Origin: Pseudomonadota bacterium
GTDB taxonomy: Bacteria > Desulfobacterota > Desulfobulbia > Desulfobulbales > SURF-16
Assembly: GCA_018816555.1 (NCBI GenBank)
Contig: JAHIVT010000065.1
Location: forward strand, 1 to 32,853
DNA: 32,853 nt
Direction: 5' to 3'
Positions 11,280 through 32,737 of the stretch are shown one piece after another. The translations under genes and the position numbers were made by a program. Within the stretch, counting starts at the first letter, position 1; each line of letters opens with the position of its first letter. The notes below the pieces were generated by a model, which was not told the origin of the DNA, ran no database searches, and saw only the letters and a list, made by a program, of their open reading frames with translations.

Positions 11280-12053
11280 TTATGCTTTTTTGAACTTGCG
11301 ACGTTGAAAGGCTGCCAGACCGCTGATGCCGGTGCCGAAGAGCAGCATGGTTGCCGGTTCGGGCACCGGAGCGGCAGCGTGTCCGTCAATGGCGTCGTTG
11401 CCGCATGACATTGTCCAGTGGGCGTCCAGAGCAGCGAAATTGCCGATTGATGTAATGTCAAAAGACACGATACGCCAGTAGGAATCGTTGTATTGGCCTT
11501 TTGATGTTGTGCCGTTGGCTGAACTTATCAGGGTGCCGGACTCCATGGCAAATGGATTTGAGATCACATGGCCTGAGTATACGTCGGTGTTCCATTTTGT
11601 CACTTTATATAGTCCGGCATCGTTTATTCCGTCAGTATCGCCAACCATATCCCCTTGGTAATCCTTGGTGAGCAGACCAAAATCAAAGCCATATTCGTAA
11701 GTGGCAGCATTGCCGGTTGAGGCATTTCCGTCAAAGGAAAGTGCCAAGTCCCCGGCATAGTACCATTTGCCGCTGTAATATACATCGCCGTCGACAAGGT
11801 CAAAGCCGGCCTGTAGTCCGATAGAAAGAGTGTTTCCATTTAATTTGTAGTAGAGGTACTCTGCGTCGAATGCCTGGCCGCCCCCTCCTGGGCCAACTAT
11901 TCCATCGTCATTGGCTATTTGAGTCCAGCTTGAGTCAAAAACAGTGGTGATGGGATCAGCATTTGCTGTCTGGCAGGCCGCACTTGCCACCGCCAAGGCG
12001 GCAATAACCCTGACTGCGTATTTTTTTGAAATCCCTAACAAGGTTTTTTTCAT
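11280..12053 (-). CDS. PEP-CTERM sorting-domain surface protein
   Basis: The 257-residue protein has a signal peptide (MKKTLLGISKK, hydrophobic core, cleavage near ANA-D at about residue 33). Its beta-rich, Gly/Asp/Tyr-rich body has no enzyme motif. The C-terminal PEP-CTERM tag consists of VPEPATMLLFGTGISGLAAF followed by the basic QRRKFKK. Such proteins are processed by an exosortase (EpsH/XrtA type) and are linked to extracellular polysaccharide production. A WTMSCGND segment precedes the tag. The ribosome site (AAGGAG, 7 bases) fits the start. A sigma-54 promoter lies about 95 bp upstream and a terminator follows. No exosortase gene is in the window. Confidence 0.93.
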   Translation of the reverse strand: MKKTLLGISKKYAVRVIAALAVASAACQTANADPITTVFDSSWTQIANDDGIVGPGGGGQAFDAEYLYYKLNGNTLSIGLQAGFDLVDGDVYYSGKWYYAGDLALSFDGNASTGNAATYEYGFDFGLLTKDYQGDMVGDTDGINDAGLYKVTKWNTDVYSGHVISNPFAMESGTLISSANGTTSKGQYNDSYWRIVSFDITSIGNFAALDAHWTMSCGNDAIDGHAAAPVPEPATMLLFGTGISGLAAFQRRKFKKA

Positions 12054-13664: not shown

Positions 13665-15179
13665 TTATCCTTTTTTGCTGCTTTTCTTAATGGCCATGGC
13701 GGCAAAATCACGGAAAAGCCGGAGGGCCTTGATGCGGTCTTTGTTAAGTTTGGGCCTGCCTGCCTTGCGATCCATATACAGCAGGGCAATGGCCTTGTTG
13801 TTGATAACGATGGGGAAAAGGTAAACGGTTCTGCCTTTGACCAGGTAATGCATGTTTTCAGGAAAAGCTTCCAGCGCCTCAACTTCTACGGCAATATCCT
13901 TGCACTGCTTCATGGCTCTCGGGATCACCTGATCCACATTGGCCAGAGGCTGTTCAAAATTGGCAATATCCTGGGCATCTATGTCGCCTAAGCCGAAGCG
14001 TCCTGCCAGCACGATTTTAGTTGTCTGGATACTCATCACGCAGAGGATTACCCTGTCAAAGCCCACACCCCGGTATATGGCTTCCAGCAGGTTCGCATAG
14101 AATTCATTGAGTTGAAAGGAACCCATCAGCGTCTCGGTCATTTCTTTAATAAAATCGTTGATGGATTTGTCTGAGGACGGTAATTCGTCCAGTTCCTCAA
14201 TGTCTTGCCCGGTTTTTTTAGCCTTCTTGGCTGATTTTTCCTGTTCGGGTGAGGCGGTTTCGCGTCTTGCGGCCTTTTCCAGTCTGCTGTGAATTTTAAG
14301 TTTCGATAGACCGTAGCGGATGGAGTCGGAGATGTCCTGGGATGCCTCCACGCCTTTATTCAGCAGTTCCAGGGCTTGTTCCTGATTAATGGATAGGACT
14401 TCACCATAGTGGAGCAGTAGTTCGCTGGTATCTTCGTCGTTGCAAACCAGGTCGACAAAGCGGTTGCTGAAATCGGCGAGATTCTGCAGGTATCCTTCGG
14501 CGTCGTACCCGCTTTTGGGTTTGGCCGGATGGGTTTCCATGGAGATAACGACCTTGTGGGAGAGATTCCAGAATTTGGCAATCTCCTTCCCCAGGTCGGA
14601 AAAGGTGAGATCTTCGAGAAGTTGCCTGGTTGCAGTTTCTTCAGGGATCCCCAGTGCAATATTGCCCTCGATTTTTTTATAGATATCGGGCATGTAGATA
14701 AAGGTAATAATCTTGCCGAGATTGTGGAGCAGGCCGCAGATGAAAGCCTCTTCCGGCAGGACATTGAGCTTTTTCTCGCCGGCAAGGTCCCGGCAGTGCA
14801 GGGCGCTGAGAAAGGAGCGGGTCATCAGTTTGGTGACCCCCTCTTTTTCGACCCCGGATTTGATAAAATCTTCAAAAATTGCTATGGCGGTGGCAAGATC
14901 GCGCACGGCGTCAAAGCCGAGAATGGTGACAGCCTTGGAGATGGAGCTGACCGATTGCCCCAGGGAGTAGTAAGCTGAATTGACAACCTGCAATACTTTG
15001 TTGGTCAGGGAGTAGTCTTTCAGGATAACCCGTGACAGGTCGTAGGAGGCGCTACGGCTGCTGTGCACCAGGGAGATGAGTTCCTGCACATTAGTGGACA
15101 TGGCGGGCAGTTCGCTCATGTTCATCTTGGCAAAGATTTCAGCTAATTTCCCTGATGGCTTACTTTTCGATTCTGTCAT
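13665..15179 (-). CDS. HDOD-domain signalling protein with C-terminal GAF-like domain
   Basis: The 504-residue protein opens with an HDOD domain at about 15-215 (LPAMSTNVQELISLV, LLHNLGKIITF). HDOD is an HD-like fold that usually lacks phosphodiesterase activity and acts as a regulatory scaffold. A charged, lysine-rich linker follows at about 285-325. The C-terminal part (about 345-500) looks like a GAF sensor fold (GFDRVILCVM, IALLYMDRK). There is no transmembrane segment, so it is cytosolic. The ligand is unknown. It is upstream of serS in an apparent operon, 6 bp apart. Two TATAAT boxes lie upstream at 15205-15236. The ribosome site of the start at 15179 is weak. Confidence 0.85.
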   Translation of the reverse strand: MTESKSKPSGKLAEIFAKMNMSELPAMSTNVQELISLVHSSRSASYDLSRVILKDYSLTNKVLQVVNSAYYSLGQSVSSISKAVTILGFDAVRDLATAIAIFEDFIKSGVEKEGVTKLMTRSFLSALHCRDLAGEKKLNVLPEEAFICGLLHNLGKIITFIYMPDIYKKIEGNIALGIPEETATRQLLEDLTFSDLGKEIAKFWNLSHKVVISMETHPAKPKSGYDAEGYLQNLADFSNRFVDLVCNDEDTSELLLHYGEVLSINQEQALELLNKGVEASQDISDSIRYGLSKLKIHSRLEKAARRETASPEQEKSAKKAKKTGQDIEELDELPSSDKSINDFIKEMTETLMGSFQLNEFYANLLEAIYRGVGFDRVILCVMSIQTTKIVLAGRFGLGDIDAQDIANFEQPLANVDQVIPRAMKQCKDIAVEVEALEAFPENMHYLVKGRTVYLFPIVINNKAIALLYMDRKAGRPKLNKDRIKALRLFRDFAAMAIKKSSKKG

Positions 15180-15556: not shown

Positions 15557-16531
15557 ATGAGCGATTCACCCAAAGCGTTTTTTAAACTTGTTGCCGGTGG
15601 AGAAGAACATACCTGGACGCTGGTCGGGAAGAGCACCTACCGCGTGGGGCGTGGTGAAGGCAGTGATATTCTCCTGCCCTATCCCTGGGTGTCCCGCCAG
15701 CATGCCATGGTCCAGGTGGAGTCGAATTTCAGTCACAATATCGTTGATCTCGGCAGTGCAAACGGTACCTTTGTCAATGGACGGCGGGTCTATACCCCCA
15801 CCAAGTTGAACTCCCTTGATCATGTCAAGATAGGCAAATCGGAACTGATTTTTCAGCAGGAAACCCTGGTTGCCCCCCCGTCCGGTGATGAGACAGATGG
15901 CACCGGCGATGAAACCGTCGCCTTTCTGCAGAAGAATCAGGTGACCATTCTTGTTTGCGATATTCGGCAGTTTACCCCGTTGTCGGAAGAGGTGGGGGCA
16001 GGTCCTATTTCGCAATTTCTGGCCCTGTGGAGCAAGAAGGTGGATGGGATTGTGCGGAAAAACGGTGGCCAGGTTGACAAGTTCATCGGGGATGCAGTGC
16101 TTGCCGTGTGGCCCGAGGGAGCGGATTTCGCCGCGGTGTCCACGGCTTTGCTTTCCGCTCTGGAAATCAGTATCCTGACTGGCAAACTCGGCCAGAGTGT
16201 GCCGGGGATCAGCCGGGCGTTGAAAATCGGGGCAGCCTTAAACAGCGGTGAAGCAGTGATGGGCAATATCGGTGTCGACGGACAACGGGATTTCACCATT
16301 GTCGGGGATGTGGTCAATGTGGCCTTCAGGTTGCAGGAAATCACCTCCCGGCAGAAAATAGATGTGATTCTCGGGGAAAAAACCTATCGGCAGCTCCAGG
16401 ATGCCTCGTCATATTTTACACCCCAGACGTATACGGTCAGAGGAAAGACTGAATCCGTGCTGACCTATAGTGCATCGTTTGAAAATTTACGGCAATATCT
16501 GTGCAAATGGAAATCTTTGTTGAAAAAATAA
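15557..16531 (+). CDS. FHA domain-class III adenylate/guanylate cyclase
   Basis: The 324-residue protein has an N-terminal FHA phosphothreonine-binding domain (about 25-100: GRGEGSD, SRQHA, SANGTFVNG). A class III nucleotidyl cyclase domain follows at about 128-300. Metal-binding aspartates are D135 (VCDIRQFT) and D179 (FIGDAVLAVW). K175 sits at the base-selecting position, and N254 and R258 (VVNVAFR) are the transition-state residues, so the enzyme should be active. Lys with Thr247 favours ATP, giving cAMP. It is probably cytosolic and controlled by phosphoprotein docking. The ribosome site AGAGGA supports the start. Nearby kinase and phosphatase genes suggest its partners. Confidence 0.92.
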   Translation: MSDSPKAFFKLVAGGEEHTWTLVGKSTYRVGRGEGSDILLPYPWVSRQHAMVQVESNFSHNIVDLGSANGTFVNGRRVYTPTKLNSLDHVKIGKSELIFQQETLVAPPSGDETDGTGDETVAFLQKNQVTILVCDIRQFTPLSEEVGAGPISQFLALWSKKVDGIVRKNGGQVDKFIGDAVLAVWPEGADFAAVSTALLSALEISILTGKLGQSVPGISRALKIGAALNSGEAVMGNIGVDGQRDFTIVGDVVNVAFRLQEITSRQKIDVILGEKTYRQLQDASSYFTPQTYTVRGKTESVLTYSASFENLRQYLCKWKSLLKK

Positions 16532-16541
16532 GCTCGGGAAA

Positions 16542-16553
16542 TGACATTTGTCA
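16542..16553. promoter_or_regulatory. Short inverted repeat between cyclase and FHA genes
   Basis: TGACATTTGTCA has two perfect 5-bp arms around a 2-bp centre and lies 11 bp after the cyclase stop, about 145 bp before the FHA gene. It could be an operator, but the evidence is slight. Confidence 0.25.
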
Positions 16554-16696
16554 AATTGTGTGACATAGTTGGGATAGGAAGAGTGTATCCGGAAGATATC
16601 CGTCGCATGGGAAGGTGAAGTTAACCCTATCGGAAGGGAAGCGGAAAAGGATGTCAAATTTTAATTTCGGCGCAGCGGCTGGCAGAGGAGTGTACT

Positions 16697-17395
16697 ATGG
16701 CTGTATGGGCAATTAAGCTTCATGACAAGGTTGTTAAGCAGTTTGCCATTGAGGATGGTGAGCGTCTGGTTATCGGCAGGAGTTCTGAAGCGGACGTGGT
16801 GGTTGATAATACGGCTATTTCCCGCAAGCATACTGCTCTTGAAAGAAGAAGCGGGGTCTATTTCCTGGAGGATCTCGGCAGCCTGAACGGGACCATGGTC
16901 AATGGCAAGAAGATCGATTCATGTGTGCAGCTTTTTGATGATGATGTCATCGAGGTCGGAAAATTCCTTCTGCTGCCTGCCGAGGCTTTGAAGGATGCCA
17001 AATTCGTTTCCCAGAGCGCGCCGATGGATTATGGCGATGAAACGGTTTTCGTCAACCGTGGCACTCGTTCGGCCGCTGCCCCGAAGGCCAAGGAAAAAGG
17101 GAAAGCCCCCCATCATCTGACCGTGATAAAGGGCAATGGCAGTCCGGCGGAGGTTCCCCTGCTTGGCCGCAGCAGCGTCAAGATCGGCAAGGACATCAAC
17201 TGCGACCTGCGGGTATCCGGCTGGTTTGTGGCCCAGGCCCAGTGTTATGTCATCAACCGTGATAAGAAATTTTATCTCGTCCCGCAGCGCAGCTGGGTAA
17301 AGACCTCAGTCAACGGCAATGCAGTGCGAGAGGAGCGGGAACTGCACAAAGGTGACATTATTGAAATTCGCGGGGTACAGATACGTTTTGAGTAG
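16697..17395 (+). CDS. Protein with two FHA-type domains
   Basis: The 232-residue protein has a clear N-terminal FHA domain (about 20-95) with IGRSSEADVVV, SRKHTALE and GSLNGTMVNGKKI. A Lys/Ala-rich linker follows, then a second FHA-like domain (about 135-232) with LGRSSVKIGKD and VNGNAVREERELHKGD. The second lacks the usual SxxH pair (it has VAQAQCYV), so phosphothreonine binding there may be lost. It probably acts as a cytosolic adaptor. The DDDV and DYGDETVF segments may offer phosphorylation sites (ET). The ribosome site GAGGAG at 6 bases supports the start. It lies between the FHA-cyclase and the Ser/Thr kinase. Confidence 0.85.
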   Translation: MAVWAIKLHDKVVKQFAIEDGERLVIGRSSEADVVVDNTAISRKHTALERRSGVYFLEDLGSLNGTMVNGKKIDSCVQLFDDDVIEVGKFLLLPAEALKDAKFVSQSAPMDYGDETVFVNRGTRSAAAPKAKEKGKAPHHLTVIKGNGSPAEVPLLGRSSVKIGKDINCDLRVSGWFVAQAQCYVINRDKKFYLVPQRSWVKTSVNGNAVREERELHKGDIIEIRGVQIRFE

Positions 17396-17569
17396 CGGCT
17401 GCAGATTTCGCCATATTCCGAGGTGATGCTGCCTGTGCCCTTGGATGCAGCAATTGTACCGCAACATTTGCGGTCTGTTAAAAAAGGTCTTTCCCCACTA
17501 TGCAGAAAAAACCACTGAAGGTATTTCTTCTCCCTGTATTGACTGTCATGCATATGGGTTTGTGAAATC
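17396..17569. other. Gap between FHA and kinase genes
   Basis: This 174-bp gap contains a small perfect hairpin (ACCGCA/TGCGGT near 17458-17474) without a T run, and no clear promoter or gene. Confidence 0.35.
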
Positions 17570-20035
17570 ATGCTCACCCGTTTTTTTAAAAGAGCAAGCA
17601 GGGGTTTCAAAGGATTGGAGGCTGTTGAGCCATCACCTCCGGCCGATGCCACCGAGATGATGTCCGAGTCTGCTGTCGCCAATCACGTCAACCACCTGAA
17701 CTGGCTGCCTGGTGAAGTTGTCCAGGACCGTTACCGTATTGATCGTATCTTCAGCGGCGCCATGGGCAAGGTCTATATTGCCGAACATCTGTCATGGGGC
17801 ATCTGGACGGCCATCAAGGCTCCCAAACCGGAGGTATGGGCAGACCGTGAAGGTTTGCAGCGTATCCTGACGGAGGCCAACAGCTGGATTCGTCTGGGCC
17901 TGCACCCCAATATCGCCTCCTGTTATTACGTCAAGTCAATTGCCGGCATACCCCATATCTTTATCGAATATGTGTCCGGAGGGACCCTTGAGGAATGGAT
18001 CAACAGGGGACGTTGCCAGGACATGCGAACCGCCCTGTCCATCGCCATCCAGTTCTGTAACGGCATGGAGTATACCCATTCCAAGGGGTTCATCCACCGT
18101 GACATCAAACCCCAGAATATTTTGCTCTCCAAGGACGGTCTGGTAAAAATCACGGATTTCGGCATCCTGCGTCTCATTGATGATACAAGCAGGGAGGTTG
18201 ATGCTCCGCAGAAAAAAGGACAATCCAGGGACGACACCGTCGGGTTCCGCGGCACCCCCAACTATGCCTCACCGGAACAGTTGCGTAATGCCCATAAAGT
18301 TGACCGGCGGACGGATATTTTTTCCTTCGGCCTCTGTCTGTGGATGATGTTCTGCGGCAAAAGACCATATAAGCACAATGCCCAGGGGAACTGCCCCGAA
18401 CCCGAGCCGGCAAAACCGGAAATTGTCCTGCCTGAGACGCTGAAAGATATTCTGAAAAAGTGCGTGGCCTTTCAGCAGGACGACCGTTTTCAGGATTTTA
18501 CCGAACTGAAGGAGGCTTTGAACCAGGTTTATCTCGAACTTTTCCAGGTGTCATGCCCCTATGCCATTATGGGAAAAATCGATCTGCGCGCTGAGAATAT
18601 GAATAACCGGGCGGTTTCCCTGGCGGAACTGGGCAAATACAAGGAGGCAGCCGGGTATCTTGACCGTACGCTGGAGATTAATGACTCCCTGACCGAGGCT
18701 CTCTACAACTCGTATATGATGAGATGGTGCAAAAGCACGGAAAACCCGGAGCGCCTGCTGCGCCGCATCGAGGCCAGTAAGAAGAGATTTCCCAAGCTCT
18801 CCATCTTTGACGATCTTGAAAAGGAGATTGCCGAATTTATTGAGCATGAAGGCGAGGTGCAGAGAAAAGAGCGCAACAGGGAACCCCAGCTGCTGCTCTG
18901 TTTTCCCAAGGCGCCCATGGAGATATTCCGTGATGCCCAGCTGCGCAGCTCGGTGCATCATAATATTCTTACTCTCCTGCAGAACAGGCGACTGACGGAA
19001 TGCTATGACACCCTCCTGGTCAGCTGGAGTAATGAACAGTTCAAGAAGGACAAGTTTTATTACAAGATCTATGAGCAGCTGCTGCCCGAGGGACGTAAAC
19101 GGGCGCTGTCCACGGTACAGAGGCTGATGACCCATACCGATGCCGATGCCGGTCCTGTTTCCTTTCTGGCCAGTCTGCCGGCAAGAAAGCTTGTTTTTTT
19201 CGTCGTTTCCGGGACCAGAGTACAGGTGCGGAGCGTTGGGGAGAAAAAAAAGAGTGTGCTTTTTACTGAGACGTCAAAAGCAATTACCGCACTTGCTGCC
19301 GGTCTGACCGCCCTTGCCGTGGGCCAGGAAAACGGTGCGGTCAGGTTCCGTTCTTTTAAGAGCGGGGAGCAGCAGGATGTGGCATTCGGTAAAAGCGCCA
19401 TCCTGTCCCTGGCCTTCACTCCTGACGGCAGACAGTTGTTGGCAGGGATGGCGGACGGCAACATCATGCTCTTTGAAACGGCGGACGGCAAACTGAAAAA
19501 AGTTGGCCTGTCCAAAGGAGGAGGGGTGCGCGGTCTTGCCTGGTTAAAGGATGGCAATTTTGCCGCCTCCTGTGAGGACGGCTCTTTGCGATTTTACGAT
19601 GGCCGCTCAGGTGAGTGCCGACGGGAGATCGAGGCCCACGCCCTGCCGGTGACAACGATGGCGGTGAGTGCTGATGGGACAAGAATTGCAACCGGCAGTG
19701 CCGACCGGCTGGTCAGGATCTGGGATTGCACGGCAGGCCGATGCCTGTTGACAATTGACGGTCATCAGGACGCGGTGACCGCGGTTTTATTTCTTGATGA
19801 CGGGCAGACGGTCATTTCCGGCTGTGAGGACGACATCATCCGCCTGTGGAACTGGCAGTCCGGTAAATGCAACCAGATTCTTGATGCCCGGGGAGACGGG
19901 GTCTCCACGCTGGCTCCGGGGCCGAAACCGCATACCTTTCTTTCCGGCCGCCAGGACGGGGCTATTGTCATGTGGAGCGTCATCTATCACCTGGAGTTTG
20001 ATGACGGGCTGCCCTCGGCATTGCGCAGCTTGTAG
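17570..20035 (+). CDS. Ser/Thr protein kinase with TPR-like segment and WD40 repeats
   Basis: The 821-residue protein has a Hanks-type kinase domain at about 55-325. The glycine loop is SGAMGKVYI (its first glycine replaced), the ATP lysine is K83 (TAIKAPK), the catalytic loop is HRDIKPQN (D178, N183), and DFG is at 196-198. A short TPR-like segment (NNRAVSLAELGKYKEA) lies at about 345-390, then a helical linker. The C-terminal part (about 530-815) is WD40 repeats, best seen in GSADRLVRIWDC and GCEDDIIRLWNW. No membrane segment is seen, unlike PknB-type kinases. The WD40 propeller may bind partners. The start at 17570 lacks a good ribosome site; a later start at 17657 would also keep the kinase domain. 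FHA and PP2C proteins flank it. Confidence 0.92.
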   Translation: MLTRFFKRASRGFKGLEAVEPSPPADATEMMSESAVANHVNHLNWLPGEVVQDRYRIDRIFSGAMGKVYIAEHLSWGIWTAIKAPKPEVWADREGLQRILTEANSWIRLGLHPNIASCYYVKSIAGIPHIFIEYVSGGTLEEWINRGRCQDMRTALSIAIQFCNGMEYTHSKGFIHRDIKPQNILLSKDGLVKITDFGILRLIDDTSREVDAPQKKGQSRDDTVGFRGTPNYASPEQLRNAHKVDRRTDIFSFGLCLWMMFCGKRPYKHNAQGNCPEPEPAKPEIVLPETLKDILKKCVAFQQDDRFQDFTELKEALNQVYLELFQVSCPYAIMGKIDLRAENMNNRAVSLAELGKYKEAAGYLDRTLEINDSLTEALYNSYMMRWCKSTENPERLLRRIEASKKRFPKLSIFDDLEKEIAEFIEHEGEVQRKERNREPQLLLCFPKAPMEIFRDAQLRSSVHHNILTLLQNRRLTECYDTLLVSWSNEQFKKDKFYYKIYEQLLPEGRKRALSTVQRLMTHTDADAGPVSFLASLPARKLVFFVVSGTRVQVRSVGEKKKSVLFTETSKAITALAAGLTALAVGQENGAVRFRSFKSGEQQDVAFGKSAILSLAFTPDGRQLLAGMADGNIMLFETADGKLKKVGLSKGGGVRGLAWLKDGNFAASCEDGSLRFYDGRSGECRREIEAHALPVTTMAVSADGTRIATGSADRLVRIWDCTAGRCLLTIDGHQDAVTAVLFLDDGQTVISGCEDDIIRLWNWQSGKCNQILDARGDGVSTLAPGPKPHTFLSGRQDGAIVMWSVIYHLEFDDGLPSALRSL

Positions 20036-20084
20036 CGTTTGCCCGCGAATAATTTTTTGATGGATTCGTAAAAACTTAAAATTT

Positions 20085-20155
20085 ACCACAGAGAGCACAG
20101 AGCTGACTGACTCTAATAAAAAATGTTTCTCTGTGATCTCTGTGTGCTCTGTGGT
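20085..20155. repeat. CACAGAG-type inverted repeat
   Basis: ACCACAGAGAGCACAGAG at 20085-20102 is mirrored by CTCTGTGTGCTCTGTGGT near 20138-20155, with a further CTCTGTGAT copy just before. The pair can form a long hairpin between the kinase stop and the phosphatase start. This kind of CACAGAG repeat is scattered in many bacterial genomes. Confidence 0.7.
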
Positions 20156-20273
20156 GAAAAAAGACTTTTTTCGAGTTGATCACTTTTTACTGTATGGAAA
20201 ATTTTACTCCGTAAGGACCCGCAAAAGGGACATGTGGCGACATATGCCCACCTGCCCTTACCATGGAGGCAGC

Positions 20274-21035
20274 ATGCTGCAGTTTCTTAAAAAATTCTTT
20301 GGAGCTCCCCAGAGCAGCCTTGGCTGTTTTGGCCGCACGGATACCGGCATGGTGCGGAAAAACAATGAGGACAATTTTGCCATTCTGGTTGAGCGGAACC
20401 TTTTTGTGGTTGCGGACGGGATGGGAGGCCATCAGGCGGGAGAAATTGCCAGCCGGGTGGCAACGGAGTATCTGATAAACTATTTTTCCGCAGAGAAAAT
20501 CCGCGAAATACAGGGCAATCCTGCGGCCATCCAGCATGGACTCATCGCGAGCTTTTATAAAACCAATGACAAGGTGATGGGCATGGCGGCGGAAAACCAG
20601 GATCTGCTTGGCATGGGCTGCACCCTGGTGGCCTGTCTGATCGATAGCGGTGTGGCCTCTATCTGCCATGTGGGAGATGTCCGCGCCTATCTTGACGATG
20701 GTTACATCTTAAAACAGCTCACCACCGACCATTCACTGGTGGCGGACCAGACGCTGGGGCTGGCGGATGGGGGGAAAGCGGTGGGCCGTAATATCATCAC
20801 CAGGGGGATCGGTTTTCCTTTTGCCGAAGATCCGGAGTTTCATCGGGTGCCGCTCTCTGGGGGCAATAAAATTCTACTCTGTTCCGACGGCCTGTGGGGC
20901 ATGGTCAGTGATGAGGAGATGCACCAGACCCTTGAGCGGTCCGGTTCGCCTGAGGAGGCCTGTGATGAACTTGTCCGGCAGGCCAATGCGGCAGGCGGCA
21001 AGGATAATGTTACGGCGGTGGTGGTGTTCTGCTAA
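20274..21035 (+). CDS. PP2C-type Ser/Thr protein phosphatase
   Basis: The 253-residue protein has the bacterial PP2C metal-site motifs: RTDTGMVRKNNEDN (residues 21-34), VVADGMGGH (45-53), CHVGDVRAYL, LCSDGLWGMVSD and GGKDNVTAVVV. It should dephosphorylate Ser/Thr phosphoproteins and oppose the kinase encoded just upstream. It is cytosolic with no membrane helix. The start at 20274 is chosen because GGAGG lies 4 bases before it. A longer frame from 20133 would run through the CACAGAG repeat and begins with non-domain sequence. Its stop overlaps the convergent moeA stop by 4 bp. Confidence 0.93.
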   Translation: MLQFLKKFFGAPQSSLGCFGRTDTGMVRKNNEDNFAILVERNLFVVADGMGGHQAGEIASRVATEYLINYFSAEKIREIQGNPAAIQHGLIASFYKTNDKVMGMAAENQDLLGMGCTLVACLIDSGVASICHVGDVRAYLDDGYILKQLTTDHSLVADQTLGLADGGKAVGRNIITRGIGFPFAEDPEFHRVPLSGGNKILLCSDGLWGMVSDEEMHQTLERSGSPEEACDELVRQANAAGGKDNVTAVVVFC

Positions 21036-28729: not shown

Positions 28730-30256
28730 ATGCCTCGAACCAGAAAAAATCCTCAACAATTTTTCGCCGAATCCCTGAAAGAAGCACGATTAATTGCCCG
28801 GGATGGAATAGTAAAGTCTTCTGATCTTGATAGAAAATTCCGGGAAAAACTTATTGCCGAAGCCTGCCTCGCAGAAATTATAAAAGGCTGGTATCTGCTG
28901 ACTCCCCCTGGAGGAGAAGGGGAAAGCAGCGCTTGGTTTGGAGGCTTCTGGTCCTTTCTTAAATACTATCTCTCGGAAAGATTTGGGAAAGCCGGCTTCT
29001 GCTTATCGGCAGAGTCTTCTTTGAATGTGCATGCCGGGAATACGGCTATCCCGAAGCAAATCATAGTCCTTACTAAGAAGGCGAGTAACAAGAGTATAAA
29101 CCTGCCCCACGATACTTCAATTCTCCTGCTGATGGATGTAAAGAATTTCCCTGAAGATACAGAAGAGTGGAATGGTGTGAGGATAATGTCGCTACCCTCT
29201 GCCCTATGCCGTTTGGCTCCGGTTTACTTTCAGAAAAATCCGAGGAATATTGAGATTGTATTGAAAATATCCTCTTTGTCAGTGCCGGAAATTTCGAGAA
29301 ATATTCTCCATACTGGAGCAATCGCATCCGCTGAAAGGATTATCGGTGCATACCGGCACCTCGGAGAAGAGGTAAAATCAAAGCAAATACAAGAAGACTT
29401 GATCACGGCAGGATATCAGCTCAAAGAAGTCAATCCGTTCATCGAATACGAGCCCAAACTTGGATCGACCTTGAGCGCATCTCCTTATGCCGGACGTATC
29501 CGTATGATGTGGAATTCGATGAGAGACGAGGTGTTGCATATAATGCCCGCTTCACCCGGGATGAGAGGAGATGTCCAGGATGCGCTCAAATCCATTCAGG
29601 AAAGATATAGAGAAGACGCCTATCACTCCTTATCCATCGAGGGCTATCAGATAACGGAAGAGCTGATTGAGAAAATTGAATCCGGCGAGTGGGATCCAGA
29701 GAATGTTGCCGCGGACAGGAGGCAAAAAGATGCGCTGGCAGCAAAAGGTTATCAAGCCGCCTTTAAAGCTGTTCTGCAGAGCATAAGCAGGGTTCTTGAT
29801 GGAGATAGGGCCGGCAAGGTTTTTGAAGAGGACCTGCAAACCTGGTACAGGCAACTTTTTGCGCCTTTATTGAAAGCAAACATCCTTTCTGCAGAAAATC
29901 TTGTCGGGTATAGGAACCAACCTGTTTATATCTCCGGATCAAGGCATGTTCCCCCGCCCCGGAATGCTGTCCCGGATTGTATGGAAGCCCTTTTTGACTT
30001 ACTGAAGGAGGAACAAAATGCCGCCTTCAGGGCGGTTCTGGGCCATTTTATCTTTGTCTTCATTCACCCGTATATGGATGGAAATGGCCGGATTGGAAGA
30101 TTTTTGATGAACCTTATGCTTGTGTCCGGGGGATTCAGCTGGACAGTGATAAAAGCGGAAAAAAGAAATGAATACATGACTGCTCTGGAAAAAGCTTCTA
30201 CAGAAGAAGAGATCAAACCCTTTGTCGAATTTATAAAGAAATACTTAGAATCCTGA
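28730..30256 (+). CDS. Fic-domain AMPylator with AbiEi-like N-terminal region
   Basis: The 508-residue protein ends in a Fic domain with the full active-site motif HPYMDGNGRIGR (446-457). Upstream is the inhibitory-helix motif SLSIEG (SxxxE with E304), the class II arrangement in which the helix precedes the Fic domain. Fic enzymes transfer AMP or similar groups to hydroxyl side chains. The first about 190 residues look like an AbiEi-type antitoxin/winged-helix plus beta region (GIVKSSDLDRKF, FCLSAESSLNVHAG, IPKQIIVLT). The fusion suggests a self-contained toxin-immunity or stress-response protein. The ribosome site GGGAGG is strong. The gene is bracketed by copies of the tRNA-Phe 3' end, so it may have been acquired. 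Substrate unknown. Confidence 0.88.
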   Translation: MPRTRKNPQQFFAESLKEARLIARDGIVKSSDLDRKFREKLIAEACLAEIIKGWYLLTPPGGEGESSAWFGGFWSFLKYYLSERFGKAGFCLSAESSLNVHAGNTAIPKQIIVLTKKASNKSINLPHDTSILLLMDVKNFPEDTEEWNGVRIMSLPSALCRLAPVYFQKNPRNIEIVLKISSLSVPEISRNILHTGAIASAERIIGAYRHLGEEVKSKQIQEDLITAGYQLKEVNPFIEYEPKLGSTLSASPYAGRIRMMWNSMRDEVLHIMPASPGMRGDVQDALKSIQERYREDAYHSLSIEGYQITEELIEKIESGEWDPENVAADRRQKDALAAKGYQAAFKAVLQSISRVLDGDRAGKVFEEDLQTWYRQLFAPLLKANILSAENLVGYRNQPVYISGSRHVPPPRNAVPDCMEALFDLLKEEQNAAFRAVLGHFIFVFIHPYMDGNGRIGRFLMNLMLVSGGFSWTVIKAEKRNEYMTALEKASTEEEIKPFVEFIKKYLES

Positions 30257-30272
30257 TGCCCAGGAGAAAATG

Positions 30273-30360
30273 CTGAAAATCCGTGTGTCCCTGGTTCGAT
30301 TGCTGGTCCCGCCTCTGCCTCCTTTGCGCCTATCGTTTTCATTGTAAATTATTCCCTTAA
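30273..30360. repeat. Direct-repeat region, copy 2 (partial tRNA-Phe copy)
   Basis: 30273-30311 copies the 3' part of tRNA-Phe with one change (GATTGCTGG for GATTCCTGG). 30316-30360 copies the flank at 28512-28556 with four changes. It lacks the 5' half of a tRNA, so it is not a functional gene. It lies 16 bp after the Fic stop. Confidence 0.8.
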
Positions 30361-30605
30361 CCCGGATAATTCACGAGGCGAGGGTTCCTAAAATTGCCTA
30401 TCGTTTCTTGGTAGAATCGTTAAATCCTTAATGATGTGCTGTTTTGCCACACCCTTTGAGTCATTTTCCCCTTGCATTTTTGTTAGGGAAACACAAAGGT
30501 GATTTATTTGAAATGTTCTTTGAGAACGGAAACGGTTTCAGGTCTTAGCATATGAGTTTGTAATATTTCAAGACTTGATCCCGTTCCGTGTGTCCTTCCG
30601 GCCCG
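30361..30605. other. Non-coding accessory region before the tandem repeats
   Basis: About 245 bp without a credible gene. Near its end (30540-30587) lies a divergent copy of the repeat motif below (CAGGTCTTAG; TTTCAAGACTTGATCCCGTT). GGATAATTCACGAGGCG at 30364-30380 is reminiscent of insertion-sequence ends, but I cannot support that. Confidence 0.4.
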
Positions 30606-30850
30606 CATGGAATCCACGCACAACAATCAGGACGGAGTTGGGGTCTTAAAAATGAATTTTGAGAATTTTGTTTTGAAAAACTTATATTTCAAGACCTGAC
30701 CCTCTCCGTGCATGGAATCACGCGCACAACAATCAGGACGGAGTTGGGGTCTTAAAAATGAATTTTGAGAATTTTGTTTTGAAAAACTTATATTTCAAGA
30801 CCTGACCCTCTCCGTGCAAGACCTGACCGTATCCGTGTGACCCTATCCGT
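30606..30850. repeat. 105-bp tandem repeat with partial copies
   Basis: Unit 1 (30606-30710) and unit 2 (30711-30816) are nearly identical; each begins CATGGAATC and ends AAGACCTGACCCTCTCCGTG. Shortened copies follow (CAAGACCTGACCGTATCCGTG-like at 30817-30837, TGACCCTATCCGTGG to about 30851). Reverse complemented, GGGTCAGGTCTTGAAATA resembles REP-type sequences near RAYT transposases. There are no spacers of CRISPR kind. Confidence 0.8.
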
Positions 30851-30901
30851 GGCTCACAGGTTAGCTCGGCGATATGTATATAAAATGGAGATTAAATCAT
30901 A

Positions 30902-32737
30902 ATGGAAATAGGAATACTACATCTGACAGATATGCATATCTCGGAACAAACTAATTTGGACAACAAAATCACATCGCTTTGTAAAGCCATATCATATGAT
31001 TTTGCCAATATTGATACTTCATATCTTGTAATTAGTGGCGATATAGCTAATACAGGTAAAAAAGAAGAATACGAGAAGGCAAAAAATATTATCAACAGAA
31101 TCCAAACATATGTTTTTGAGCAGCATCAAAGATTAGAAATTAAAATAATTCTAGTTCCTGGAAACCACGACTGTGACTTTACTTTCGACTCTCAGATAAG
31201 AAAAAACTGCATCAATAAAATGGATTATAATGTGCTTGGCAAAGACAATAGTGTGTTGGAAGCATGCCTTACTGTTCAAAATAATTTTTGGGAGTTCTAT
31301 TGTAATTACAATGAAATGCCAAAAAATAAAATTTCATATGAAGTGATAGGAAATGTTGGTAATGAAACAATATGCTTTCATTGCCATAATACTGCATGGG
31401 TGTCACAAATAGATGAAAAACCAGGGACTCTATTTTTCCCAGTTAAAAACATTATCAATAATAAAGATATTGCTTGCGATATTAATATATCAGTTTTTCA
31501 CCATCCGATTAATTGGTTTAATCCAGATACTGAAACAAACAACAAAAGAGAATTTCAAAATTATTTAGATAAAATATCATCGATACAGCTATTAGGGCAT
31601 GAGCATGAATCTGTTCACGAGAAGAGAGTAGATCTAGATAACATAACAGACACGCTAAGTTTTTCAGGAGCTATACTGAATAATAATTCAGTACCTAATC
31701 AATCAGGTTTTCAAGTTTTTAAAATTTCAACAACAACGAAAAAAGGAATAATAAAAAAATATATTTGGAATGAGAATATTTATAGCACAGAGGATGATCT
31801 AACATTTGATTATAATAAAGTGATAAGAAGATGTTTCACGATAAATAAAAATTTTTATACGCAAATTAACGAAATTCAAATTCCATTAGCAATTAATAAC
31901 GGAAATTCCAAACTTTCTGATATTTACATTTTCCCAGACCTAGAATCTTTGGATGTTAATGAAAAGTATATTGATTCATATTTAGATTCAAAGTCATTAG
32001 TCGGCAACATGAAATTAAAGAAATGTATTCTTGAGGGAGAAAGTCAGGTTGGAAAAACGAGTTTATTAAAAATGCTTTTTTTGGAGTATTACAATAGAGG
32101 ATATTATCCGTTAATTATTGATGGTAAAGATATTAAAAAAAATGATTTCGATTTAATATTAAAAAGAAAATTTATTCAAACATATTCAGAAGAATCAATT
32201 GAATTTGATAGATACAAGCAACTTGAAAAAAATAACAAGATATTGCTAATTGATGATTTTCAACAAATGACTTTTGATTTGCATAAAGTACAACAAATTA
32301 TTAATCAAATTTCACAATGTTTTGATCAAATAATAATTGTAATCGACTCGTCTTATGGAATTTTTCCACAAATTCAAGCAGAGCTTGATGGATTTTATTA
32401 TTTTTTAATTAAACCTTTTGGCTATAAAAAAACAAATGATTTAATCATTCGTTATTTTTCAAACAAATGCTATTTAAGTTCTGACAAGCAGGAATTATTG
32501 CAAAAAATAAGATTTACATTTGATCAAGTTAGAAATATTTTGGGGAACAAATTTATACCGTCATATCCTGTATTTATTTTGTCAATTATTCAGTCACTTG
32601 AAAATGCATTATTTGATTTAAACAAAACATCTTATGGTTATTGTTATCAAACTTTAATTCATTATGCTCTTTCAGGCAAAGCCAACGTAAGGAATGAAGA
32701 TTTAGGTTCATATATTGTAACCGATCACGGGGTATGA
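30902..32737 (+). CDS. Calcineurin-like phosphoesterase fused to a STAND-like P-loop NTPase (probably 3'-truncated)
   Basis: The 611-residue product starts with a metallophosphoesterase domain (about 1-250) with all metal motifs: D10-x-H12, GD47, GNHD (87-90), H200/H201 and GHEH (232-235). After a linker comes a P-loop NTPase with Walker A GESQVGKTS (379-387) and Walker B ILLIDDFQ (447-453). Such effector-NTPase fusions occur in bacterial conflict and phage-defence proteins. The gene is far more AT-rich than its neighbours, suggesting transfer. It ends abruptly after GSYI with VTDHGV, in the GC-richer DNA of a following element, and has no C-terminal sensor repeats; truncation is likely. The ribosome site (GGAG, about 12 bases) is poor. 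Confidence 0.82.
   Translation: MEIGILHLTDMHISEQTNLDNKITSLCKAISYDFANIDTSYLVISGDIANTGKKEEYEKAKNIINRIQTYVFEQHQRLEIKIILVPGNHDCDFTFDSQIRKNCINKMDYNVLGKDNSVLEACLTVQNNFWEFYCNYNEMPKNKISYEVIGNVGNETICFHCHNTAWVSQIDEKPGTLFFPVKNIINNKDIACDINISVFHHPINWFNPDTETNNKREFQNYLDKISSIQLLGHEHESVHEKRVDLDNITDTLSFSGAILNNNSVPNQSGFQVFKISTTTKKGIIKKYIWNENIYSTEDDLTFDYNKVIRRCFTINKNFYTQINEIQIPLAINNGNSKLSDIYIFPDLESLDVNEKYIDSYLDSKSLVGNMKLKKCILEGESQVGKTSLLKMLFLEYYNRGYYPLIIDGKDIKKNDFDLILKRKFIQTYSEESIEFDRYKQLEKNNKILLIDDFQQMTFDLHKVQQIINQISQCFDQIIIVIDSSYGIFPQIQAELDGFYYFLIKPFGYKKTNDLIIRYFSNKCYLSSDKQELLQKIRFTFDQVRNILGNKFIPSYPVFILSIIQSLENALFDLNKTSYGYCYQTLIHYALSGKANVRNEDLGSYIVTDHGV

Follow-up and report, generated by a model that had tools for sequence, protein, structure and literature searches.

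Several described systems join Ser/Thr kinases to FHA-domain proteins or to nucleotide cyclases. In the threonine phosphorylation pathway of type VI secretion systems (T6SS), PpkA-PppA-Fha, a kinase, a PP2C phosphatase and an FHA protein occur together; GarA is reportedly recruited by PknB through the activation loop, and proteins of the PkwA type are said to unite a kinase with a WD40 propeller. In the OdhI/PknG pair, as the cited sections describe it, the FHA domain is the docking site of the kinase, with an activity about 45-fold over that on a peptide, and autophosphorylation sites in the disordered tail of PknG recruit the FHA substrate (PMC8546545). The FHA domain of Bdellovibrio DgcB, from which FHA-gated cyclases are known structurally, reads a phosphothreonine within the same polypeptide and thereby activates the GGDEF cyclase, the kinase not having been identified in that work (PMC6733907). 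In Myxococcus Pkn2 and the TOMM kinase/cyclase fusions (TIGR03903 by name), a Ser/Thr kinase is joined to a class III cyclase in one chain, and the sections that describe them do not mention FHA coupling (PMC1262709). Here we analyse a stretch of 32,853 nucleotides (contig JAHIVT010000065.1, positions 1 to 32,853; hereafter the window) from the Desulfobulbales assembly GCA_018816555.1 (G000; 4.93 Mb in 183 contigs), which encodes an FHA-class III cyclase, a double-FHA adaptor (FHA2), a kinase with WD40 repeats, a PP2C phosphatase and a divergently oriented HDOD protein. We propose, with a probability of about 0.55, that a phosphothreonine-FHA switch couples the cytoplasmic Ser/Thr kinase of this set to its cyclase, the predicted source of cyclic AMP (cAMP).

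An earlier note, made from the DNA letters, had recognized four co-oriented genes, and open reading frames and Pfam bear it out: on the + strand, 15557-16531 encodes FHA and Guanylate_cyc domains, 16697-17395 two FHA domains, 17570-20035 Pkinase and WD40, and 20133-21035 PP2C. The catalytic residues that the note had seen in the cyclase, the kinase and the phosphatase are also kept across relatives, in alignments of 44 to 49 rows each. The conserved set is wider than these four genes, the note having missed the divergent HDOD gene. Among the matches listed in a search of the open-licence literature, judged by titles and opening lines, we found none that describes a kinase as the partner of an FHA-class III cyclase.

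The cyclase (324 aa, 15557..16531, + strand) consists of an FHA domain (Pfam 1.7e-17), a disordered linker and a class III domain (Guanylate_cyc 1.9e-12) of the IIIb type, and is predicted to be an adenylyl cyclase. Class IIIb enzymes carry Thr at the adenine-specifying position, and some respond to bicarbonate; their signature, made up of functionally important residues, is two metal-binding Asp, Lys, Thr in place of Asp, Asn and Arg. The present cyclase has this full set. Our alignment of 48 rows covers 44 of the 53 cyclase-bearing genomes defined below (nine were not fetched), with G015, G021 and two named metagenome-assembled genomes (MAGs) added, and each of the six residues is found in 47 or 48 of the rows; at four positions the residue is lost in one row, the substrate Lys being Ile in G030. 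The predicted product is cAMP, and 13 matches to the cyclic-nucleotide-binding domain in the genome make cAMP receptors plausible there. In the FHA domain, the phosphothreonine-binding Arg, Ser, Arg and His are invariant (45/45 rows having the residue), as is Asn (47/47). In a predicted structure built on an alignment of 13 sequences, linker residues 104-125 have a predicted local distance difference test score (pLDDT) below 50, and the strand at 125-136 starts the catalytic domain. Named relatives of the cyclase include proteins from Desulfurivibrio sp. (86% identity) and from Desulfurivibrionaceae and Desulfobulbaceae MAGs.

Structural matches place this protein near the precedents above. 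For the FHA domain, the best match in the PDB is GarA, with OdhI also among the best; for the cyclase domain, the best are CyaB (3r5g, at the top), photoactivated cyclases, Cya2 and CyaC; and DgcB (6hbz) is also among the fold matches of the protein (E 6.3e-11). Like DgcB as described in the cited sections, the cyclase has an FHA domain N-terminal to a nucleotide cyclase, a partly disordered linker and a Thr-containing segment in the same chain, and from its sequence it may be likened to an enzyme in which docking of the FHA domain to a phosphopeptide gates activity. It differs in having a class III Guanylate_cyc domain where DgcB has GGDEF, in carrying its Thr segment after the FHA domain and not in an N-terminal tail, and in being encoded alongside a candidate kinase and phosphatase, whereas the sections on DgcB name no kinase. 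With GarA and OdhI it shares the type of FHA domain and a phosphorylatable Thr segment combined with it, and there, according to the sections cited, kinase autophosphorylation sites recruit the FHA protein; the FHA domain of the cyclase and the first of the two in FHA2 both have the canonical phosphothreonine-binding residues. The output is 2-oxoglutarate metabolism in those systems and a second-messenger enzyme here, and neither the cyclase (42.1 bits) nor FHA2 (54.3 bits) reaches the NCBIfam OdhI cut-off of 200 bits. We read the set as one of the FHA phospho-switches, the enzyme at its output being a predicted adenylyl cyclase.

The adaptor FHA2 (232 aa, 16697..17395, + strand) comprises a canonical FHA domain, a disordered linker and a degenerate second FHA domain. 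Thus the two FHA domains noted earlier are there, whereas a pair of phosphothreonine readers is not: Arg, Ser, His and Asn are present in 49/49 sequences in the first domain, while in the second Arg has become Lys (46/49), His Gln (49/49) and Ser Ala or Gly (42/49), so that this domain probably reads no phosphothreonine. Linker residues 101-136 have a pLDDT below 50 in a structure predicted from an alignment of 10 sequences. The kinase (821 aa, 17570..20035, + strand; Pkinase 6.8e-42, WD40 1e-36) is predicted to be a soluble Ser/Thr kinase, its C-terminal part forming a WD40 propeller. Its alignment of 49 rows (45 of the 49 kinase-bearing genomes plus G014, G015, G019 and G021) retains the Lys, HRD-Asp, DFG-Asp and APE-Glu in 49/49 rows each. 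An initial full alignment had comprised 28 and 30 rows. By its catalytic residues and propeller it belongs with the PkwA-like kinases, from which it differs in its linked FHA adaptor, PP2C and FHA-cyclase; a kinase carrying WD40 repeats is an established architecture and not new in itself (PMC1262709). The phosphatase (253 aa) probably starts at the ATG at 20274 and not at the GTG at 20133, because the aligned part of its homologues begins at residue 39 or later in 39/44, the commonest starting point being residue 48, where this ATG lies; its re-assigned coordinates are 20274..21035 on the + strand. Each of the five metal-binding Asp is present in 43 or 44 of 44 rows. Against the Stp1/IreP model NF033484 it scores 211.3 bits over positions 2-231 of 232, below the equivalog cut-off of 230, and it is a close Stp1/IreP relative on this side of the equivalog line.

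One short motif, [DEN]xT[VI], is common to the cyclase linker, the FHA2 linker and the kinase activation loop. In the window it reads DETVAF in the cyclase linker (Thr120; 15908..15925, + strand), DETVFV in the FHA2 linker (Thr116; 17036..17053, + strand) and DDTVGF in the activation loop (Thr223; 18230..18247, + strand), and the Thr is kept in 48/48, 49/49 and 46/49 homologues, respectively. The cyclase linker is freely variable except at its end: in columns 103-117 the commonest residue reaches only 15-40%, whereas the motif columns hold Asp, Glu or Asn at -2 in 48 rows, Thr in 48, Val or Ile in 47, Ala in 44 and Phe in 39. In FHA2, Asp or Glu at -2 and Thr are each found in 49/49 rows, Val or Ile in 48, Phe in 48 and Val in 41, and the activation loop has [DEN].T[VIM]GF in 40/49. 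The broad motif occurs in 44/48 cyclase linkers and 46/49 FHA2 linkers, where shuffled linkers would give 2.15 and 0.75. A strict form, defined only after the alignments had been viewed, occurs in 40/48 and 46/49 linkers and twice in 131,808 control residues. Because the rows are related, weight should be given to how sharply the columns differ and not to the row counts. At +3 the three sites of the window have Phe (cyclase), Val (FHA2) and Phe (kinase), and FHA domains often read the +3 residue from the phosphothreonine (PMC6733907).

We propose that a signal reaches the kinase, the WD40 propeller being its probable sensor, that the kinase then autophosphorylates at DDTVGF in the activation loop, and that the intact FHA domains of the cyclase and FHA2 dock on such phosphorylated Thr. 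The docked kinase would then phosphorylate the matching Thr in the linkers, at DETVAF before the cyclase domain and at DETVFV between the FHA domains of FHA2. The phosphorylated cyclase linker could bind the FHA domain of the same or a partner subunit, altering the pairing of cyclase domains and with it the cAMP output, while FHA2 would compete or act as a scaffold, PP2C would reset the switch and HDOD would be a linked partner. The earlier note had likewise suggested that the kinase directs FHA docking on the cyclase, and this is now partly supported: synteny within the family, co-occurrence where the genes are unlinked and the common conserved Thr motif speak for it; phosphorylation, docking, the direction of regulation and the change in cAMP are what we infer from these. 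More tentatively, at somewhat less than even odds, the motif [DE]xT[VI] may serve as a single phospho-code that one kinase writes on three targets, namely its own activation loop, an FHA adaptor and an FHA-cyclase, wiring eukaryotic-like Ser/Thr kinase signalling directly to cAMP. The adenylyl cyclase would then be gated by its FHA domain and would come with a dedicated kinase and phosphatase; in our samples this arrangement is confined to one order, with the cyclase at the kinase locus in one family and in trans elsewhere.

Several observations weigh against this proposal. The broad motif is not rare: 15 other window proteins (5,852 residues) yield 7 matches, and long open reading frames from the loci (131,808 residues), not all of which are necessarily genes, yield 80. 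Nine of the 49 kinases do not have the full activation-loop motif, and since many such kinases have a Thr at this position, the information there lies in the flanking residues alone. In GarA and OdhI the phosphorylated segment precedes the FHA domain, whereas here the motif is C-terminal to it in both proteins. Finally, the cyclase motif lies directly against the strand that opens the catalytic domain, so that its V-A-F may be kept for folding. The motifs might accordingly be structural, or serve another reader, with the kinase-FHA2-PP2C core acting on other targets. The border of the cyclase motif with the strand at 125-136 suits this explanation, but the FHA2 motif lies in the middle of its linker, away from both folded domains, and its Thr is nonetheless invariant; we regard it as very unlikely.

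Docking might also act alone, the cyclase FHA binding phosphothreonines of the kinase or FHA2 and positioning the enzyme with no intramolecular switch, so that the output would be local cAMP or assembly of a complex. The intact FHA residues of the cyclase and FHA2 are as expected from such recruitment, and [DENG]xT-type sites, which recall the tail of PknG, occur in the N-terminal tails of 15/21 kinases of the window's family, as judged from uncurated starts. However, these sites are found in only 3/28 kinases outside the family, for several of which the sequence taken as the tail is plainly not the true N terminus, and we rejected them as a general N-terminal docking motif. Recruitment by itself also leaves unexplained the invariant Thr that stands in the cyclase linker 15 residues before the first metal-binding Asp, and we consider it rather unlikely to be the whole account.

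We then located the five proteins in the neighbourhoods of relatives by BLAST score, on which orthology also rests. The gene order is conserved, as the earlier note had asked to be checked: for all four + strand genes within the window's family, and for FHA2-kinase-PP2C across the order. Specifically, the core of the set across the order is a divergent HDOD gene facing FHA2-kinase-PP2C. FHA2 adjoins the kinase in 48 of the 49 kinase-bearing genomes, the exception (G066) being a contig end. PP2C adjoins it in 43/49, partly via split contigs; at the other six the kinase lies at or close to a contig end, and in one of them (G014) a PP2C fragment is still visible. HDOD is adjacent in 39/49, its neighbour being FHA2 in 26 of these and the cyclase in 13; four loci (G006, G007, G010 and G013) lack it, and at six the contig ends first. 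In G010 and G013, neither of which has a full-length cyclase match, FHA2 adjoins the seryl-tRNA synthetase gene that lies beyond HDOD in the window. The HDOD protein of the window (504 aa, 13665..15179, - strand; Pfam HDOD 1.1e-41) is encoded divergently from the cyclase, and its C-terminal part appears GAF-like by eye.

Sixteen of the 22 genomes in the window's family have the cyclase adjoining FHA2; among the other genomes fetched we found no such adjacency. Two further genomes of the family have contig breaks here: in G005 the cyclase and FHA2 lie at the ends of two contigs, compatible with adjacency, and in G003 a cyclase fragment lies at a contig edge. Since the cyclase stands beside FHA2 in one family and elsewhere in others, it must have moved into or out of the kinase locus. 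In 31 genomes where the cyclase is unlinked, its neighbours are housekeeping genes: within 4.5 kb we found genes for an alanine-racemase-fold (YggS-like) protein in 19, TatD in 19, a CoaBC-type flavoprotein in 16 and a nitroreductase in 12, one member per group having been checked with Pfam. In the window, intervals of 165 and 174 bases separate the first three genes, so that co-transcription is not assured there; in relatives such as G020 and G021, the genes of the set almost touch or overlap. Scans of the window for promoters (10 sites vs 3.9 expected, two of them on the + strand) and terminators (9 vs 6.2 expected, only two on the + strand, both within the kinase gene) gave no clear operon boundary.

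Next, we asked how often the two enzymes occur together in 193 genomes of the order, using cut-offs of E <= 1e-30 for the cyclase and E <= 1e-70 for the kinase. The cyclase is present in 53 and the kinase in 49; 44 genomes have both, nine only the cyclase, five only the kinase and 135 neither (Fisher P = 9e-29, ignoring the tree). Counted by hand by genus, the numbers are 22, 6, 2 and 34 (P = 9.6e-10, again ignoring the tree). The kinase count is 51 matches less G024 and G046, with which genus g12 is lost; their matches have 34% identity and run from residue 285-287 on, being of the same type as a paralogue on contig C5 of G000. In 30 of the 44 genomes with both genes, all outside the window's family, the two are on different contigs (28 genomes) or 22 and 47 kb apart (G103 and G077), so that the association is not accounted for by linkage. 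Among 394 genomes drawn from the whole phylum, each gene occurs in five, which are identical for the two genes and belong to this order (E <= 1e-40 for the cyclase, 1e-100 for the kinase). The conserved set is found in a group of sulfur-cycle bacteria, in which the kinase, phosphatase and adaptor probably control the cyclase, apparently by way of the one short motif common to kinase, adaptor and cyclase.

Some of these counts again tell against the proposed switch. Because the tests carry no correction for phylogeny, their P values are too small. Nine of the 53 cyclase genomes have no kinase, and [DE]xT[VI] is kept in eight of those nine cyclases; the pairing is therefore not exclusive, and in these genomes another kinase may act or the motif may have another role. 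Conversely, five genomes have the kinase and no counted cyclase, among them G003, which was scored as cyclase-absent despite its fragment at the contig edge. The motif gave no clear sign of decay where the kinase is missing: Phe or Tyr stands at +3 in 6/9 kinase-less and 33/35 kinase-bearing rows, which are too few and too related. In G009, which has neither kinase nor HDOD and retains cyclase-FHA2-PP2C, the cyclase keeps its motif intact, and that of FHA2 has drifted to DATTLG. One could suppose that several kinases, or bicarbonate, control the cyclase, and that its place in the kinase cluster is an accident of one lineage. The missing kinases, the frequent YggS-like, TatD, nitroreductase and CoaBC-type neighbours of unlinked cyclases, and the Thr at the adenine-specifying position, shared with enzymes of which some respond to bicarbonate, are in keeping with such a loose association, which the strong co-occurrence despite lack of linkage and the cyclase-FHA2 adjacency in one family nevertheless make unlikely. 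The phosphothreonine-FHA switch, for its part, has its candidate kinase, phosphatase, adaptor and target encoded together, and conservation names the residues to mutate; a route from a Ser/Thr kinase to cAMP in bacteria would be testable with a handful of soluble-looking proteins.

A further possibility is that the genes are a detached regulatory set of a T6SS, given that the PpkA/PppA/Fha pathway has the same three types of component and that a VipA-VipB gene lies on another contig of the genome. However, the TagH model gives FHA2 50.9 bits against a cut-off of 120.25, and the cluster has a cyclase and HDOD, its recurring neighbour, where secretion genes would be expected. The earlier note had stated that T6SS genes are absent, and a Pfam scan of 25 proteins of the window, which did not extend to the relatives' neighbourhoods, likewise shows no T6SS family. 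We therefore rejected T6SS regulation, which we hold to be extremely improbable. The sheath gene itself, on contig C11 of G000 (L125:164-1687), is a fused T6SS gene with an open reading frame of 507 aa (VipA 1.3e-14, VipB 4.2e-69). A few kb away are genes for an FHA-GAF-histidine kinase, a TPR Ser/Thr kinase and a Cache-HAMP cyclase, making contig C11 a second, different FHA/kinase/cyclase neighbourhood. The FHA-GAF-histidine kinase (L125:5116-6681) has EQTVVL soon after its FHA domain, a motif of the same kind.

Paralogues of the set occur elsewhere in G000. The kinase-WD40 paralogue on contig C5 (L127:4525-6738, 737 aa), for which propeller families make up the best 25 of 37 Pfam matches, lacks HRD and DFG by eye and is likely a pseudokinase. 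On the 6.5 kb contig C93, a second double-FHA gene is followed by a PP2C gene (L126:470-2892), and the kinase of the window has no match on that contig. Contig C41 encodes an HDOD paralogue (46% identity) about 1 kb downstream of a protein with cyclic-nucleotide-binding and PilZ domains (L205:51-3898), and the two may form a cAMP effector pair. In G002 the kinase lies in two overlapping frames (L159:8660-11153), reflecting a frameshift or an assembly error. Elsewhere in the window, 11280-12053 on the - strand encodes a protein with a PEP-CTERM motif. At the right end (28730-32737), the GC content drops from 48% to 29% over genes for a Fic-domain protein and a metallophosphatase/NTPase protein, a segment that looks horizontally acquired.

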